Part shown: piece after piece, positions 15,255 to 36,699 of the stretch
How positions within the stretch are numbered: position 1 is the stretch's first letter
How the letters are laid out: every line of letters starts with the position of its first letter
From: Syncephalis fuscata
Taxonomy: Eukaryota; Zoopagomycota; Zoopagomycetes; Zoopagales; Piptocephalidaceae
Direction: 5' to 3'
Assembly (NCBI GenBank): GCA_025786725.1
Contig: JAHLTZ010000034.1
Span: 124,001-188,000 of the forward strand
DNA length: 64,000 bases
Made by a program: the position numbers and the translations under genes
The notes under the pieces: model-generated
Database searches by the model: none
Told to the model about the DNA's origin: nothing
The model's input: only the letters and a program-made list of their open reading frames with translations

Positions 15255-17825
15255 TTAAATATCTAGTAAATGATACTGTTTTAACGAGGCTAGTATCTGT
15301 GCAACACATTGTAGTAGTGGTGGATGTTGGCTCGTTTTGACTGTCTCGATTAGCGAGGGAACTGCTTTAGCTTGCACTACTTGTGCAGCCGCTGCTTTAT
15401 CTAACGCTACAATGTTGCGTAGACACTCAGCACCACGATGTTGTAATCCATCGTCAGTTTCAGTGAGTAGTGCTACGAGACGCGTCACACTTTGTTTACC
15501 ATTTAAAATGGCTCGTGCTCCTTGGGGCCAGGCCGAAAGAATAGCCAATGCACCGGCAGCAGCACTTCTAGTCGCCGTATCCTCAGCATCCGCCAATGCT
15601 ACCAATAGCTTAATACGCTCAGTTGATGCCGAATAAAGTTGACCCACGGCCGGATACATCATCAAGTTGCATATAAGTTCGGTGGCCGCTCTTTGTACGA
15701 GTGTAATACGCGAAAACTGTAAAGTACTGGCTGCTTCCACTCCTTGCGTATCCACAATGCGTTGGGCTATTTGACTATCTTCAGATACCGAAGCCAGATT
15801 CGTTAGTGCTAATAAACACTCAAATTGCCGTAATGCCGGCTGTTCCTGATCGGCACATATACGCACAAAGGGCCGTACCAGCTCTTTGGCCAATTCACCG
15901 GGAAATCCAATTCTTGGATCCACTGTAATGGCTAGTTTAGCCAATGCTTGAGTAGCCAGTTCTGCATAAGGAACATAAGGCTGCGATGCTGGATCGGCAT
16001 CATTATTCACGGCCCTACCTGGTATAGGTATACGCTCGGTTGCTAATGATAACAATATACGAACACCACCCCGCTGGATTACAGTGCCGCGATGTGTTTT
16101 ATCGGTTACAATACTTAGTAAACAGCGGGTTGCTGATCCACGTACGGCTTGACTAGTATGTTTGGCCAGTTTCAATATAACCGATAACATATCTTCTTTT
16201 AATAAACGAGCTGTTCGCTGTTCCACCTGTTTATCGTCATCTAGTGGATTATCAACAATCTGTGCTGCTTCCTTGGCCTTTTTAGATGGATTTTTGGTGT
16301 AGACTGTGCCATAGCTCGTAACTTTCTTAATTGCCTCTGCTCTTCCGTTAATTCTGGTCGATAAGACATAACATTTTCTAAGATAGATATAACACCATAG
16401 CTCATACCACTATCCTTAAGCGTTGTATTATTTAATTGATTTGCAGCATTTGGTGTTACTGCTGGTACAATAAGTGTATTTAATCCTTTGAGCAGTGCCG
16501 TATCTTTGCTAATCTGTTCTTTTACCGTTGGATCTAATGAGAAATAAGTTAGGCCTTCAACGGCACGAGCGTTAATTGTTCCATCTTCACTTGGTTGGTG
16601 TAATGCTTGATAAAAAACTTGAACAAGAATAGCGCGATGAGCTGTATCTGTAGTTGACCCGTTATCCGATGGTGCATGAGCTATTTTTGTTAATGCAACG
16701 GCTGCGGCAATCCGCATTGGCACCGAATTAACTTCTCTTAACCGAGCGAGTAAATAAGAACGACATCGAACAGCAATAATAGAACGACATGCTTTATCGT
16801 CACAGGCATACGATAGTGTTTCGGTAAGTGCTAATTGAGCTTCAAATGCTTCGTAGTCGGCCAATTCAGTTGTATCGGCCAATTTCTCAGCGCCCTCCGA
16901 ACCAAGAGCAGCTATAGCCAACGATGAATCAATTTGGAATAGTGCACAAAGAACACGGAAGCCAGCCACCCGAGTAGTAATCTGTTCATGTTCTATCCAA
17001 TGTTCAATTAGCGCTGTACATTGTTTTTCCATTGCTGTACGCAAAGGATTGGCTGGTGAGTTTTTCTGTTGTGCCATTTGACTATTTTCATTTAATTTGG
17101 CCAGTAAAAGTAAAGCCAGACCTCGAACACGATTTTGGGTAGCTTCAGCACTGGCCAGTAATAATTGTTCAAATCCGTTAGACTGTACAAATGCTATAGC
17201 CAATTCAATGTTATTCGTATCTGTATAAGTTAATATTCTTAATACTGCTTGCATCGCTTCTGCCCGTATGCCTTCCGGTAGATCTGGTGCTGTACATGGC
17301 TGCAGTGCAACAAGATACTGAACTGATGTTGCCGTATCCGTGATTGAATCTTGAATAACTGTTAATAGTCGTGTAGCAATGTTCATCGATAATTCAGCCA
17401 GCTGTTGTATTTTGCAATAATTGCGCTGTTTTGATCCTTCTCGCTGCTTTTACACCGACTTATTAGTATTGGTACCGCTTGTAATAGTTGTTTGATCATA
17501 GCCACATCCACTGAAGATGCAATAACCTTTAGTAAATCTTGAATTTCATTATCCGGATTGCCAATCAATATAACTAAACACTTTGCAAACTGTATTCTAT
17601 TATCGACTGTTCCAGCAAGTTGTGCTAATAGTTCGCCACCAACGGCTGCGGTAATTGATGTTGCAATAGCGTTGGCTTGAATTAAATCAATCCGCTTTGT
17701 TTTACTTTCTTGGCCAGTAGCAATGCTAATAAAGCGATTGTAAACTCGCTCGCATCTTTGCCTGATACTGCCGTTTCTTTAAGCAGGTCAATATCACTTT
17801 TCTCCTCGTTAAGGTTGGTGTCCAT
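15255..17825 (-). CDS. SHE4: UNC-45/She4 myosin chaperone
   Basis: Armadillo-repeat chaperone that folds and stabilises myosin heads with Hsp90. The coding strand is continuous without introns but needs three single bases restored (near 17700, 17412 and 16291-16315) to join its four ORF pieces; with them the length is 857 aa. Fungal UNC-45 is about 800 aa, so size fits. Signatures: TEEQRQLRKLRA, NPLDDDKQVE, ARLLKEDMLSVILKLAKH and AAAGALAILSAWPQGARAI. The final ARM repeats match the UCS domain. No N-terminal TPR domain is visible, as in yeast She4. The in-frame ATG at 17871-17873 is an alternative start. Three defects in one gene would normally suggest a pseudogene, but the same error type recurs in other conserved genes here. 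Confidence 0.85.
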
Positions 17826-18161: not shown

Positions 18162-19894
18162 ATGGCTATTCATCATTTTGTAGAATACTCGCGTATTTTT
18201 AAAAAGCATAGCATTCCCTTGGGATTGCGTCCCAGTTCTATGATATGTGGTAATTCTTTGCTTCGTAAGATAAATCAAACTTTATTTGCAGCTAGATCTG
18301 TAGATACGATGATGCAGCGCAAAGTACGCACGCCTGGTTGCGACGGCGTTGGAATCAAAGACATAACAAAAATTATTGTAGGACCGGGTACGCGTGGTGC
18401 AGGCAAACGCTCGATGGAGACGCGAAGACTGGCCAAGACGAGGGAGTTACCGATCTTGCCGGTGCCTCCATTCCAGGGCCGACCGATAAAAGACTTTCAA
18501 GATCTAGTTGAAGGTATGCAAAGTGCGATAAGAACGGGTGAATATAAGGCCGACTTTTTACTGCCTCGGGGCTGGGACCAGCGCTGGTATGCGACAAGAC
18601 AGCGTAAAGCCGCCGCCGCCGCCAACGAAGCGTTTAATAATGAACAACAATTAACACAGCTCGATATTGATGAACACAACATTTTGGATCACGCTTCTGC
18701 ATTACATGAAATACAGAATAGTCAGCTTGATACAGAATTGGATGAAAATGAAATAATTGACTATGATGAACCGGATTATTATCAAAATGAGCCATTAGCT
18801 GCTCAGCATACTGCATTATTGAAAGAAAACGACGATAATAGCAAATTAGTACCAGGTTATGGCGACGAAAGTTATCAATTTAAAACAAAGTCTTGGGAGG
18901 AACGGCCTTATTTAGGTGTATCAACCATGTACGATCGCTGTATGGATCAGTATTGCTTTGATTTGATAATGGCTACACTTCCATTAGACTATTTATACGA
19001 GGCGGGTAATCATAATCTACCATTAAGATCAATACGTACAGCACATATGGCAATTGCCAAACACGTTGAAGGCATGCAAGCAGATCTTCTAGCGACCCAG
19101 TCTTTCACTTCATCTGCAGGTAGTGTAGCCAGTCCACAAATACCCATTCCTGTATTGCTGGAAATTGATATGTTACGCTTACGAGATCATGTGCCACGTG
19201 AAAAGATAATACAACTATTTACAGAATCGTCTACTTCATTTTATGGCACTACACTATCGCACAATTTAATTAATGTAATATCAAGTCTAGTACATCGTCA
19301 AGTAAAGGGCGATGTTCTACCGCGTCGATTGGGTCTGGCACCGAATAACACGCTATCAAATCTATTAAGCAATGTTTATCTTTATCCATTGGATGCGTTT
19401 CTTATTTCACGCGGCTATCGAATTGTACGCTATCTAGATCGTATTGCACTGGTACTACCCAGTATGGAGTCAGCCATACATATTAGCCGCGATATTGTAT
19501 TCTTTGCCGAGGGTGAACTCGGAGTACCGGCTTCATTGCATCGTACTCAACTGGTTGAGCCAGGTCAACGAGGCAATATACTAATGCACGATGTTGAAAT
19601 CAATCCAGCTACTGGCAAATATCATTACTATATTCCAGAACCGCAAGCAAGTCGACTTGATAAACTAGCTAAGCAGCTATTTACACTTTTACATGATGCA
19701 TCCGCTCATAGAGAATCTAAGGAAGTGGATCAATGTGTACGACAGATTCTTGGCTGTATTATTATCTACACAACTGCCGATTCAACCTTTCCATCGGTAT
19801 CACGGATTAGCAAACTTTATCGACAGGGTCGGATGACAAAGATGGCATTATTGACGAAATATTAGCATGGAAGTCAATTCCTGGTACAGGATAA
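18162..19894 (+). CDS. Nuclear group II intron reverse-transcriptase/maturase-like protein, degenerate active site
   Basis: Intronless, 577 aa if one base is restored near 19818 (tail then ends GTG*; uncorrected stop 19863-19865). The order of blocks follows group II intron RTs: TPGCDGVGI (about 58-65), a thumb-side helix LVEGMQSAIRTGEY, RPYLGVSTMYDRCMDQYC (249-265, cf. RPLGIPT..DR), the 'GFRPGRS' region, VLLEIDMLRLRDHVPREKII (331-350, first catalytic Asp kept), LGLAPNNTLSNLLSNVYLYP (390-409, usually G-PQG-SPLLANIYL), and IVRYLDRIALV where YADD is expected, so the second Asp of the pair is Arg. A short X-like stretch follows; no endonuclease domain. An acidic insertion fills about 150-245. 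The basic N-terminus could target mitochondria. Likely a host-domesticated splicing factor like plant nMATs (inference). Confidence 0.75.
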
Positions 19895-19916: not shown

Positions 19917-21107
19917 TTAAAGTTTTGCATATACCGGTTTGCGTTTCTCAAGACTTGATAGAACACCTTCTTTCAAATCCTAATTAATAATAATATTAGC
20001 ATAATTATCGTTGTAATAAATAGTGAATTAGCTTACATTGGATTGTAGCATAGCAGCGTTCCATGTTACAGTGTAGGCTAGACCCTCATCGACCGTATGA
20101 TCGCGCGAGTAGTTGAGTAGATGTCTAGAAAATTAAATGTGTAAGTATGGTTCTGAAGATCCATTGATCACTTACTTTGTGCCAAGTGTAGCAATAGGCG
20201 ATTTACTAGCGATAGTATTGGCCAATGCAGTAGCATGTTCTAATTATTTGATGGTGAATGTCAGTATTTTAGTCACGAATTAATTAGCTATACAATGAGG
20301 GATGCCTACCCAATAATGTCTCGCGTGTTTCAAATACACGGCTAACCAGCCCATATTTTAGTGCTTCTTCAGAAGGAACAGAACGTGCTGTTAAACAGAT
20401 CTCTCGGCCCAGCTATCGTTGCCGACGACCTTGGGTAGGCGTTGAAGGGTGCCGACATCGGCGGCCATGCCAATATCGACCTCTTTAACGTTGAAATAAG
20501 CATCTTTGCTACAGTAGCGAACATCGCAAGCAGTAGTTAAATCAACGCCGGCACCAATACACGCTCCATGAATAGCAGCAATGACAGGACGATCACATTT
20601 CTCTACTGCAGTAATGGCATTTTGCCAATCCTACATTAATAAATTAACGAATACAAGATGGACAAGAATGAATAGTGTGTCATTGATGAAATAAACAATG
20701 CCTACCGAGATGGCTTTGCGTAGATGAAAGGCGGTACGGGCTGGATCATCATGTTCTGACACTAGACTTATTGCTTCTTGCACTAGCAAATAAAACATTA
20801 ATTAAATACTTGTTAATTTGTATTCAAATAATACGTACAATCTAGACCGGCAGTAAATATTTTACCATTGGCCGATAGAACAACTGCACGCGTATCCACA
20901 TCATGCGCCACAGCGTTGAAACAATCGACAATCTTGCCAAAGTCTAGTGTAATATCGATGGTTATTTCAGGTGCCAATAGCGTAGAAACCATCGACTTAC
21001 TGGCTGTTAAAAGCGTTGAGTCGTTCAGGACGATTTAACTGAACGTGGAGGACGTGGCTGCCAATACGGCTAGCTTTAATGTGTCTCAAACCAGCGTAGA
21101 GTGACAT
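19917..21107 (-). CDS. ECH1: Peroxisomal delta3,5-delta2,4-dienoyl-CoA isomerase (ECH1/DCI1-like)
   Basis: Crotonase-fold enzyme that rearranges 3,5-dienoyl-CoA during beta-oxidation of unsaturated fatty acids. Seven exons: 21001-21107, 20839-20943, 20706-20782, 20310-20630, 20176-20239, 20037-20124, 19917-19979. LNRPERLNAFNS, DVDTRAVVLSANGKIFTAG and HGACIGAGVDLTTACDVRYC are diagnostic. KEVDIGMAADVGTLQRLP carries the Asp/Glu pair that separates ECH1 from plain hydratases. The protein ends AKL, a PTS1 peroxisomal signal. Exon 4 needs one base (C near 20408) to read SWAREICLTARSV. The exon 1-2 junction is one base out of phase, so that border or one base there is wrong. The gene converges on the RT-like gene, 22 bases apart. 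Confidence 0.88.
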
Positions 21108-33866: not shown

Positions 33867-36699
33867 TTAGCCATCTAACTTTTTTATTAAATCATCGCGT
33901 TGTTGTTCTCTGCATCGTGTACGCAGTCCACCCAACATTACACCCATGCCATGCATCTGTGGATTGTATTGATACAGTTTCACCGTTTTTACAGCCTTAT
34001 CAAGTTCGCCGTGTCGCATATAAGCCTCTACTAAAGCAGCACCATTATTGCCATTTACTTTTACACCATCTATCTTCGTAGCTATATGCCATATGTTATT
34101 TGTCTCTTTAACAGTAAGTCCTCGACCCGATAGATCCAAGAGTACTGACAGCAATGCATTATCTATTTTTGCTGCAGATTCAGCTGAAGTAGATAGCTCG
34201 GTCCGCATACGTTGCCAAAATGCATATCCTTCTTTATCTTGACCAGCACGGGCATATGCTTGTACCATCGCCGTAATAATATGTGGCGTTATTGGAATCT
34301 GCTTTTCTAGATCTTTCTCGTTCTTTAGAGCTAGCAGCTCATCAAACCATTGTTGGGCCAGTGATAATTCTCGTTGTCGAGCAAAGACCAGTAAAGCAAT
34401 AGCGTAGTTTTGTTCACCTAATAAATAGCCATCACTTTCAAGTTCCTTTCTTACTGTGCATATATCCTCGACAGATAAACGCTGTGCGGCCGCAATCATA
34501 TGTGCCGTCCATGCATCACGCTTAGGCACTGGTAAATGCATTTCTTCACGTGCCCGTTTATAAATACGTCGTACTTGATCTAAATCTCCCTTTTGGGCAT
34601 AGCCTAATGCTAATGCATGGACCACCCGATAGGATAGATCCGGAGACGGTAATGAATGTGACGTTTTTATATAGACGGCTAGCTGTTCTTCTGCTTCATC
34701 TAGACGTCCTTTAGTCGATAGTGCTTGTAATTGTGCGGCTATTACCCATATATCGCTGAAAGCACCGCGATCTAATGCTTCAGTTGCTATCTCTAAGGCT
34801 TTTTCTGGCTTTTGCCATGCCAAATAGACGCGCATCATTGGTGCCACTAAAAATTCATGATAAATACCCCATTGCTTAACCAACTCCATGTATAGCTGTT
34901 CTGCCATACTAAAATAGTGCTTATGACCACGTCGGCCATACGCATCGATCAATGTACCGGCCGTTTGAGCATGAGGCCACAGCGTACATATAACCGTTTT
35001 ATGCCTGTCTCTTTCTTCGTCCTCTTCTTCTTCTTCCATACGTGTATTGTATAACTCAACATCATCTTCATCACGTAAACGTATAGCAACTAGCTCTCCT
35101 TTTGGTCCAGTAATTACCGTATTGGATGTTGATGACGTTGTTTGTTGCTGTTCTTGTCGCCGTAATGTATCGATAAGCATTTCGTCAAGTACCTGCCTTG
35201 CACTAGTCAATTGCTTTCGCACGATGTGAGAATGAATCATTGCCGAATAGATTAAAACTTGCCGTCCATCTGTATGACCATCCTGTCGACATGTATTATA
35301 TACACTTTCGGCTTTAAGATGGTGTCCATGACTGGCCAATCGCTCAATTAACAATCGATTGGCCGCTGCATGTGGTAAACGATTTGTGGCCACCTCTGCC
35401 TCGAATATATTCCATGCCACAAGTACTCGCTTATCTAATGTCCATTGACTAGATTCAGGCTCTGCCACTGCTTGTTGTAGTAATAAATGGAGTAGACGTG
35501 ATACTGAACGACGATTGGGCTGTCCACCAGCCTCGATAGTTTCTGTGTATAGTTTATAGATTACGGAGAGCGAATAGGGTGGGCGTAGTGTACTGCCGGT
35601 TAATAGCTTTTCTCCCAACGAGCCTGGCATAACAAAACCATCTCGCCGGGCTTTGTCTAAAAGACGTGTGGCCATAGGCGGTACACGGAAGGCTGTCCAT
35701 TCAAGTAGTGCACACCAAGCAGAACTTGATAGTCGAATGGATGGTGACAGTGCACCCAATATTAGACGACGTAATGGCGTCATACCACGAGCCGGATGTT
35801 TCATACTTAGTGTTGTTGCCAATTGATCAGTATCATCGCCATCTTCATTTTCTTGGTCTTGCTGTTCATTCTTGTCGTCGTCGTCTTCTTGTTGTTGTTT
35901 GGGCTGCTTCATTAAGCGTGGGTCAATTTGAGCAGCAGCCATAATCGTCTCTTCAATGGCCACACCACGCATAGCAGTCATATTTGACATCATACGGTGA
36001 GAGATACGGCTACTAATAAGAAGAATACGCAGTGGTCGACCTCGCCCTTGTTCTCGTTGCATCCATATGGCTATCAGTTCCCATTAAATAGCTGTACTTT
36101 GTATTTAAATAAAGCGTCAAGAAAGCAATCAAATAATGATCTTTCCGTTACTTCATCTGAGCTATTGAATGTTACATTATGATAAGTCGATGAAGCATTT
36201 AAATGCATTAGTCGGAAAGTTTTTTCCATTAATTTTGTTGGTGTTTTACGTAATTGATAATTTGCCATGAATGGCTGCATTGCCTCCCAAACCATTGAAG
36301 GATCCCGCTCTCTTAGTCCAATTCTCCATGCTCGGTATCTTCTTCTTCTTTCAATCTACCCTCTGGTTTAACGGATAAAATTGATGATAATTGTGTATTA
36401 ATACGTTTTTTTGCAAATTTATGAGTATTCGTATTTTTTGTAGTAACGCTATAGTCAGTTGACGCTGTTTTCTCTATTATATTATTCGTTTTTACGCAGT
36501 TAATCGTCGACGTAGTATTATCAAAGAAGGGTGGCGATTCATGTGTTGAGCGATTATCATAAGCACGAATAGTGGACTGTACTGTGAACTGTCGTTGAAG
36601 ATTACTGCGTCCTACAATAGACGCGCGTGTTTTTGTAAAGTATATTGGTCGCTGAGTTAAGTGACGCGGCTTTGAAGTACATAATATAGATCGGTACAT
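33867..36699 (-). CDS. Pentatricopeptide-repeat protein, probably mitochondrial
   Basis: The main ORF (33867-36062, about 730 aa) is built of tandem PPR-type helical pairs, for example LLIERLASHGHHLKAESVYN, GTLIDAYGRRGHKHYFSMAE and LALGYAQKGDLDQVRRIYKR. Upstream, same-strand pieces continue it: 36074-36330 (RIGLRERDPSMVWEAMQPF) and 36313-36699, whose N-terminus (MYRSILCTSKPRHLTQR) looks like a mitochondrial presequence. One missing A near 36087 would fuse the second and third pieces (VQLF-x-WELIAIW). The first junction, near 36320-36350, needs an intron or another missing base that I could not fix. An internal acidic linker lies around residues 65-80. PPR proteins bind organellar RNA; the target is unknown. 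Confidence 0.8.

Follow-up and report, generated by a model that had tools for sequence, protein, structure and literature searches.

The reverse transcriptase (RT)-like domain of Prp8 sits within a very large spliceosomal protein. Prp8, the nMATs, MatR and MatK are the RT-derived splicing factors listed in the available portion of a 2021 review, which names no fungal nuclear one (PMC8393795). Bacterial maturases, according to the part of the source at hand, dock on the intron with their RT domain and contact the core through domain X (PMC13172542); plant nMATs are described, in excerpts, as proteins with a mitochondrial destination that keep domain X and have deviating RT domains (PMC3927076, PMC10887915). 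Here we describe an RT-derived gene in a 64,000-nucleotide stretch (the window) of the genome of the fungus Syncephalis fuscata (GenBank assembly GCA_025786725.1, contig JAHLTZ010000034.1, positions 124,001 to 188,000 of the forward strand). Judging from its sequence, this is likely to be a fungal nuclear gene for a conserved, polymerase-dead RT of group II type, represented by the window gene and one relative. In a literature search judged by titles and abstract openings, no fungal nuclear maturase of such kind was recognised, and in the accessible sections of a rust mitogenome paper a 'nuclear-encoded maturase' appears only within a reference to Arabidopsis (PMC7951889).

The frame of this gene extends over 591 codons from stop to stop, compared with 174 codons for the longest open reading frame (ORF) in 40 Markov-simulated 64-kb sequences. 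As the initial annotation had stated, the group II RT blocks follow one another in order in the alignment: GxDG at residues 59-62, GxY at 126-128, RPYLGVSTMYDR at 248-259, the arginine of 'GFR' at 289, Asp336, GLAPN at 391-395, SxxLSN to LD at 399-411 and RYLDR at 423-427. The replacement of YADD by YLDR and of G-PQG by GLAPN, which was also noted there, is borne out, as is the acidic insertion of about 100 residues in the fingers (Table 1). The first catalytic aspartate (D336) and the first aspartate of YxDD (D426) are kept. The reference RTs used for comparison, namely 8 plasmid RTs and 23 others retrieved through their relationship to a single plasmid RT, are mutually related and not independent, and in 31 of 31 they have both aspartates of YxDD, the second at the position of Arg427, QG at that of the PN of residues 394-395, and F at that of Arg341. 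The 23 were drawn from 80 loci, 26 of which were tested and three of these (L055, L062 and L087) left out for an internal stop. RTs require the second aspartate of YxDD to bind metal, and we infer from the changed boxes that polymerase activity has been lost.

The sole NCBIfam family that matches the protein at E-values up to 10 is TIGR04416 (E = 1e-9, 38 bits, residues 332-542), which alone does not set the query apart, given that other RT frames of the genome reach 34.9 bits. With a hidden Markov model (HMM) built from 20 group II RTs, the query scores 53.5 bits, compared with at most 33.8 bits for the other RT frames of the genome that were tested (frames of at least 200 codons, up to three per RT locus) and 2.4 bits for the best of 200 shuffles. 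Scores of 33.5-33.8 bits with this HMM are shown by three copies of one RT element of the genome (L026, L027 and L028, with ORFs of 692, 692 and 479 codons), which give the impression, by sequence, of being of the long terminal repeat (LTR) or DIRS type. In per-segment HMM searches (300 shuffles per segment; the counts refer to those shuffles that hmmsearch scored), the palm reaches 50.6 bits, a score attained by 0 of 237 shuffles, and the fingers a weak 6.1 bits, attained by 0 of 179, so that by profile only the palm appears to be beyond doubt. The best of 11 PDB sequence matches is a group II RT/maturase (E = 1.3e-5). A tblastn search against plasmids yields 535 records at E-values up to 10 (best E = 2e-7), and among the 40 plasmid matches listed, every one with a gene name is ltrA, the others being given as 'none' or unannotated. 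The phage tblastn search gives 10 records (best E = 2e-4), one PHROG RT family matches at 0.0029, and a scan of viral contigs for relatives found none.

The relative is BDF22DRAFT_698512 (hereafter P0001), a 332-residue protein of Syncephalis plumigaleata encoded on a 506-kb contig, which is nuclear by its size. It was found in a protein search in which 7995 candidates, those sharing the most words, were scored; it is 56% identical to residues 1-160 of the query over 89% of this range and 38% identical to the C-terminal part over 122 columns, and probably represents an orthologue. The annotated P0001 model skips the RT core, including the YxDD region, and a protein search with the RT core, which depends on shared 5-residue words, gave no match among 2179 candidates at E-values up to 10. 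In a shifted-frame scan of P0001, the RT2 region of the query scores up to 41.6, whereas none of 20 shuffled queries exceeds 18.3; the residues there are compatible with EERPYLG-STMYDRCMDQ. In all likelihood, therefore, RT2 at least is present in the DNA of S. plumigaleata, and the public protein is probably wrongly read over this region. A recent insertion was rejected as an explanation of the locus since a relative exists in a second species, and the probable orthologue likewise speaks against a recent decaying insertion.

From an alignment that included 23 bacterial group II RTs, AlphaFold2 predicts a structure with a mean predicted local distance difference test (pLDDT) score of 49 and palm blocks up to 82; with only P0001 in the alignment, the mean is 32 and the model is uninformative. 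Foldseek and VIA match the predicted model to RTs, but these matches carry little weight, being partly circular: the model was built from an alignment that contained those RTs. When the two Syncephalis sequences are aligned and compared by hhalign, the N-terminal alignment matches the fingers in register but insignificantly (E = 0.088). The C-terminal alignment gives a short in-register match LG...Y...AD to domain X that is again insignificant (E = 0.39), and against the whole group II alignment it hits the wrong (finger) region (E = 0.44).

The two ends of the protein agree in part with their earlier descriptions. The N-terminus, which had been considered basic and compatible with mitochondrial import, is indeed basic (net charge of +5 over the first 40 residues), whereas its conservation in S. 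plumigaleata does not fit a cleaved presequence, for which conservation this strong is unusual. The C-terminus had been placed at 19894, in a protein of 577 residues; the uninterrupted frame stops earlier, at 19865, but the continuation in another frame does resemble the C-terminus of P0001.

Table 1. Features of the RT-derived gene and its immediate neighbours (positions in the window).
Feature	Position	Strand	Remarks
Neighbour, part of UNC45-like gene (nuclear)	16244..17449	-	
RT-derived ORF, group II-type	18162..19865	+	567 codons plus stop, ATG at 18162
N-terminal extension, residues 1-40	18162..18281	+	Basic; 21 of the 24 first residues identical in S. plumigaleata
RT0/fingers start, residues 41-143	18282..18590	+	GxDG, GxY; conserved in S. 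plumigaleata; weak profile score
Acidic insert splitting fingers, residues 144-243	18591..18890	+	22 acidic, 7 basic residues
RT2 box RPYLGVSTMYDR, residues 248-259	18903..18938	+	
Palm, residues 326-480	19137..19601	+	D336 kept, GLAPN for GxPQG, RYLDR for RYADD
YLDR, residues 424-427	19431..19442	+	Arg in place of second YxDD Asp
Thumb/would-be domain X, residues 481-567	19602..19862	+	Conserved in S. plumigaleata; domain X profiles do not recognise it
C-terminal tail in another frame, DGIIDEILAWKSIPGTG plus stop ending 19894	19841..19894	+	Resembles P0001 C-terminus
Neighbour, enoyl-CoA hydratase exon	20394..20630	-	

The gene is flanked by UNC45-like and enoyl-CoA hydratase genes, in accordance with its earlier placement between ordinary nuclear genes, and frames matching cytochrome b5, PPR proteins and PPIP5K are found farther along the window. 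Bacterial contamination was rejected on account of these nuclear neighbours, and a transposon copy on account of copy number, as the gene is present once in the 28.95-Mb assembly, compared with 74 RVT_1 matches elsewhere in it. The UNC45-like gene (15258-17449, minus strand) consists of two overlapping frames with an apparent slip at about 16.3 kb, where no intron is seen by eye, which suggests assembly errors in this region. The PPR match is a 738-codon ORF with PPR repeats (33870-36083, minus strand; Pfam PPR, 5e-15) that possibly encodes an organellar RNA-binding protein as well. No Rfam families or tRNAs were found within the window, and RF00029 was absent from a genome search at E-values up to 1 in which 57 of 828 candidates were scored.

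Several observations weigh against a conserved maturase-like protein of group II descent. The 38 bits obtained with TIGR04416 fall far under the curated cut-off of 300, and a Pfam search of the protein at E-values up to 10 finds no family. PADLOC models for generic RTs and for DRTs match too (3.6e-8 and weaker), so that the assignment to group II over another prokaryotic-type RT rests on best scores. The region expected to contain domain X scores 3.0 bits, which is not clearly above shuffles (reached by 8 of 282 scored), the C-terminus of P0001 scores 0.8 bits against domain X (reached by 13 of 253), and the GIIM profile has no match anywhere in the genome. Furthermore, both known copies contain a frame break, the conserved N-terminus looks unlike a cleaved presequence, and no relative besides P0001 was found (200 candidates for the N-terminus) in a search that needs shared 5-residue words. 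Finally, COX1 was not found in the assembly, so mitochondrial DNA, the search for which rested on COX1 alone, is apparently absent from it; three Zoopagomycota mitogenomes are counted in the consulted part of a 2021 survey (PMC8672057).

With LtrA-type group II RT/maturases (TIGR04416), the protein shares the order of the RT blocks, the palm sequence and the two retained aspartates, D336 and D426. It differs from them in the YLDR and GLAPN boxes, the acidic insert and the unrecognisable domain X; its frame ends before any D/En domain could follow, and no intron RNA was found near the gene in the Rfam search of the window. Like nMAT1 and nMAT2, the type I nMATs of plants as characterised in the excerpts cited (PMC3927076, PMC10887915), the gene is nuclear and stand-alone and encodes a degenerate RT with no D/En domain, but it is fungal, its domain X is undetectable, and its mitochondrial targeting and role are putative. 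With domain X unrecognisable, it is uncertain whether the nMAT model can be transferred directly. MatK is, according to the portion available, likewise a maturase relative that has been retained and whose RT domain is degenerate (PMC13172542), but it is plastid-encoded, keeps domain X and has lost the N-terminal RT motifs, the opposite of the protein described here. In contrast to Prp8, this protein is stand-alone and has 567 residues, and none of the 11 PDB sequence matches is a Prp8 chain.

The product, which descends from an RT of bacterial or mitochondrial type, has probably been tamed by the host as an RNA-binding protein. The fungal domestication suggested in the initial annotation is in keeping with a stand-alone nuclear RT of group II type whose catalytic site is degraded and with the probable orthologue; the mitochondrial location and splicing role suggested there are putative. 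Under the explanation that we prefer as a whole, at roughly even odds, an ancestor of the Syncephalis-like Zoopagales would have acquired a group II-type RT gene in its nucleus; the gene would have shed its intron RNA, lost the capacity for DNA polymerisation and been retained by the host. The RT-shaped palm and fingers, together with the conserved N- and C-terminal parts, would bind structured RNA and aid its folding without copying it. The likeliest RNA would be a mitochondrial intron or another mitochondrial transcript, as with plant nMATs, although a non-mitochondrial RNA is possible. By this analogy, a role in mitochondrial intron splicing may be proposed tentatively. The most specific form of the idea, an independent fungal polymerase-dead nuclear maturase that acts in trans on mitochondrial introns and in which the fingers, the palm and N- and C-terminal parts peculiar to the lineage stand in for a standard domain X, seems rather doubtful.

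A domesticated dead RT might also be employed outside mitochondrial intron splicing, for instance as a mitoribosomal or mRNA-binding factor or as part of a nuclear ribonucleoprotein. The recognisable palm combined with an unrecognisable domain X, which reverses the plant pattern as given in the excerpt (PMC3927076), and a conserved N-terminus that does not resemble a presequence would fit such a role; nevertheless, there is no positive evidence for such an RNA or complex, and we consider it somewhat unlikely.

The loss of the catalytic boxes, the C-terminal frame change in the window gene and the one that the S. plumigaleata model seems to need as well would also be expected of a functionless nuclear copy, in decay, of a group II RT that came from the mitochondrion or by horizontal transfer. 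This appears improbable in view of the 567 open codons, the interspecies identity of 56% over 89% of residues 1-160 and the similarity that runs on beyond each frame break. The apparent frame slip in the UNC45-like neighbour makes assembly error a reasonable explanation of both breaks, the one near the end of the gene and the one in S. plumigaleata, although true breaks are possible. Descent of the protein from another RT lineage (LINE, telomerase or DRT-like), to which the PADLOC matches might point, is very improbable, considering that the group II HMM separates the query from the other RT frames of the genome tested, that the RPxLGxxTxxDR box is present, and that no LINE or telomerase chain is among the 11 PDB sequence matches.

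If the preferred explanation of capture, loss of polymerisation and retention by the host is true, the fungal nuclear case would have an origin separate from those of plant nMATs, MatR, MatK and Prp8. Such a case would test which parts of an RT suffice for RNA chaperoning, because the palm stays recognisable here while domain X does not.
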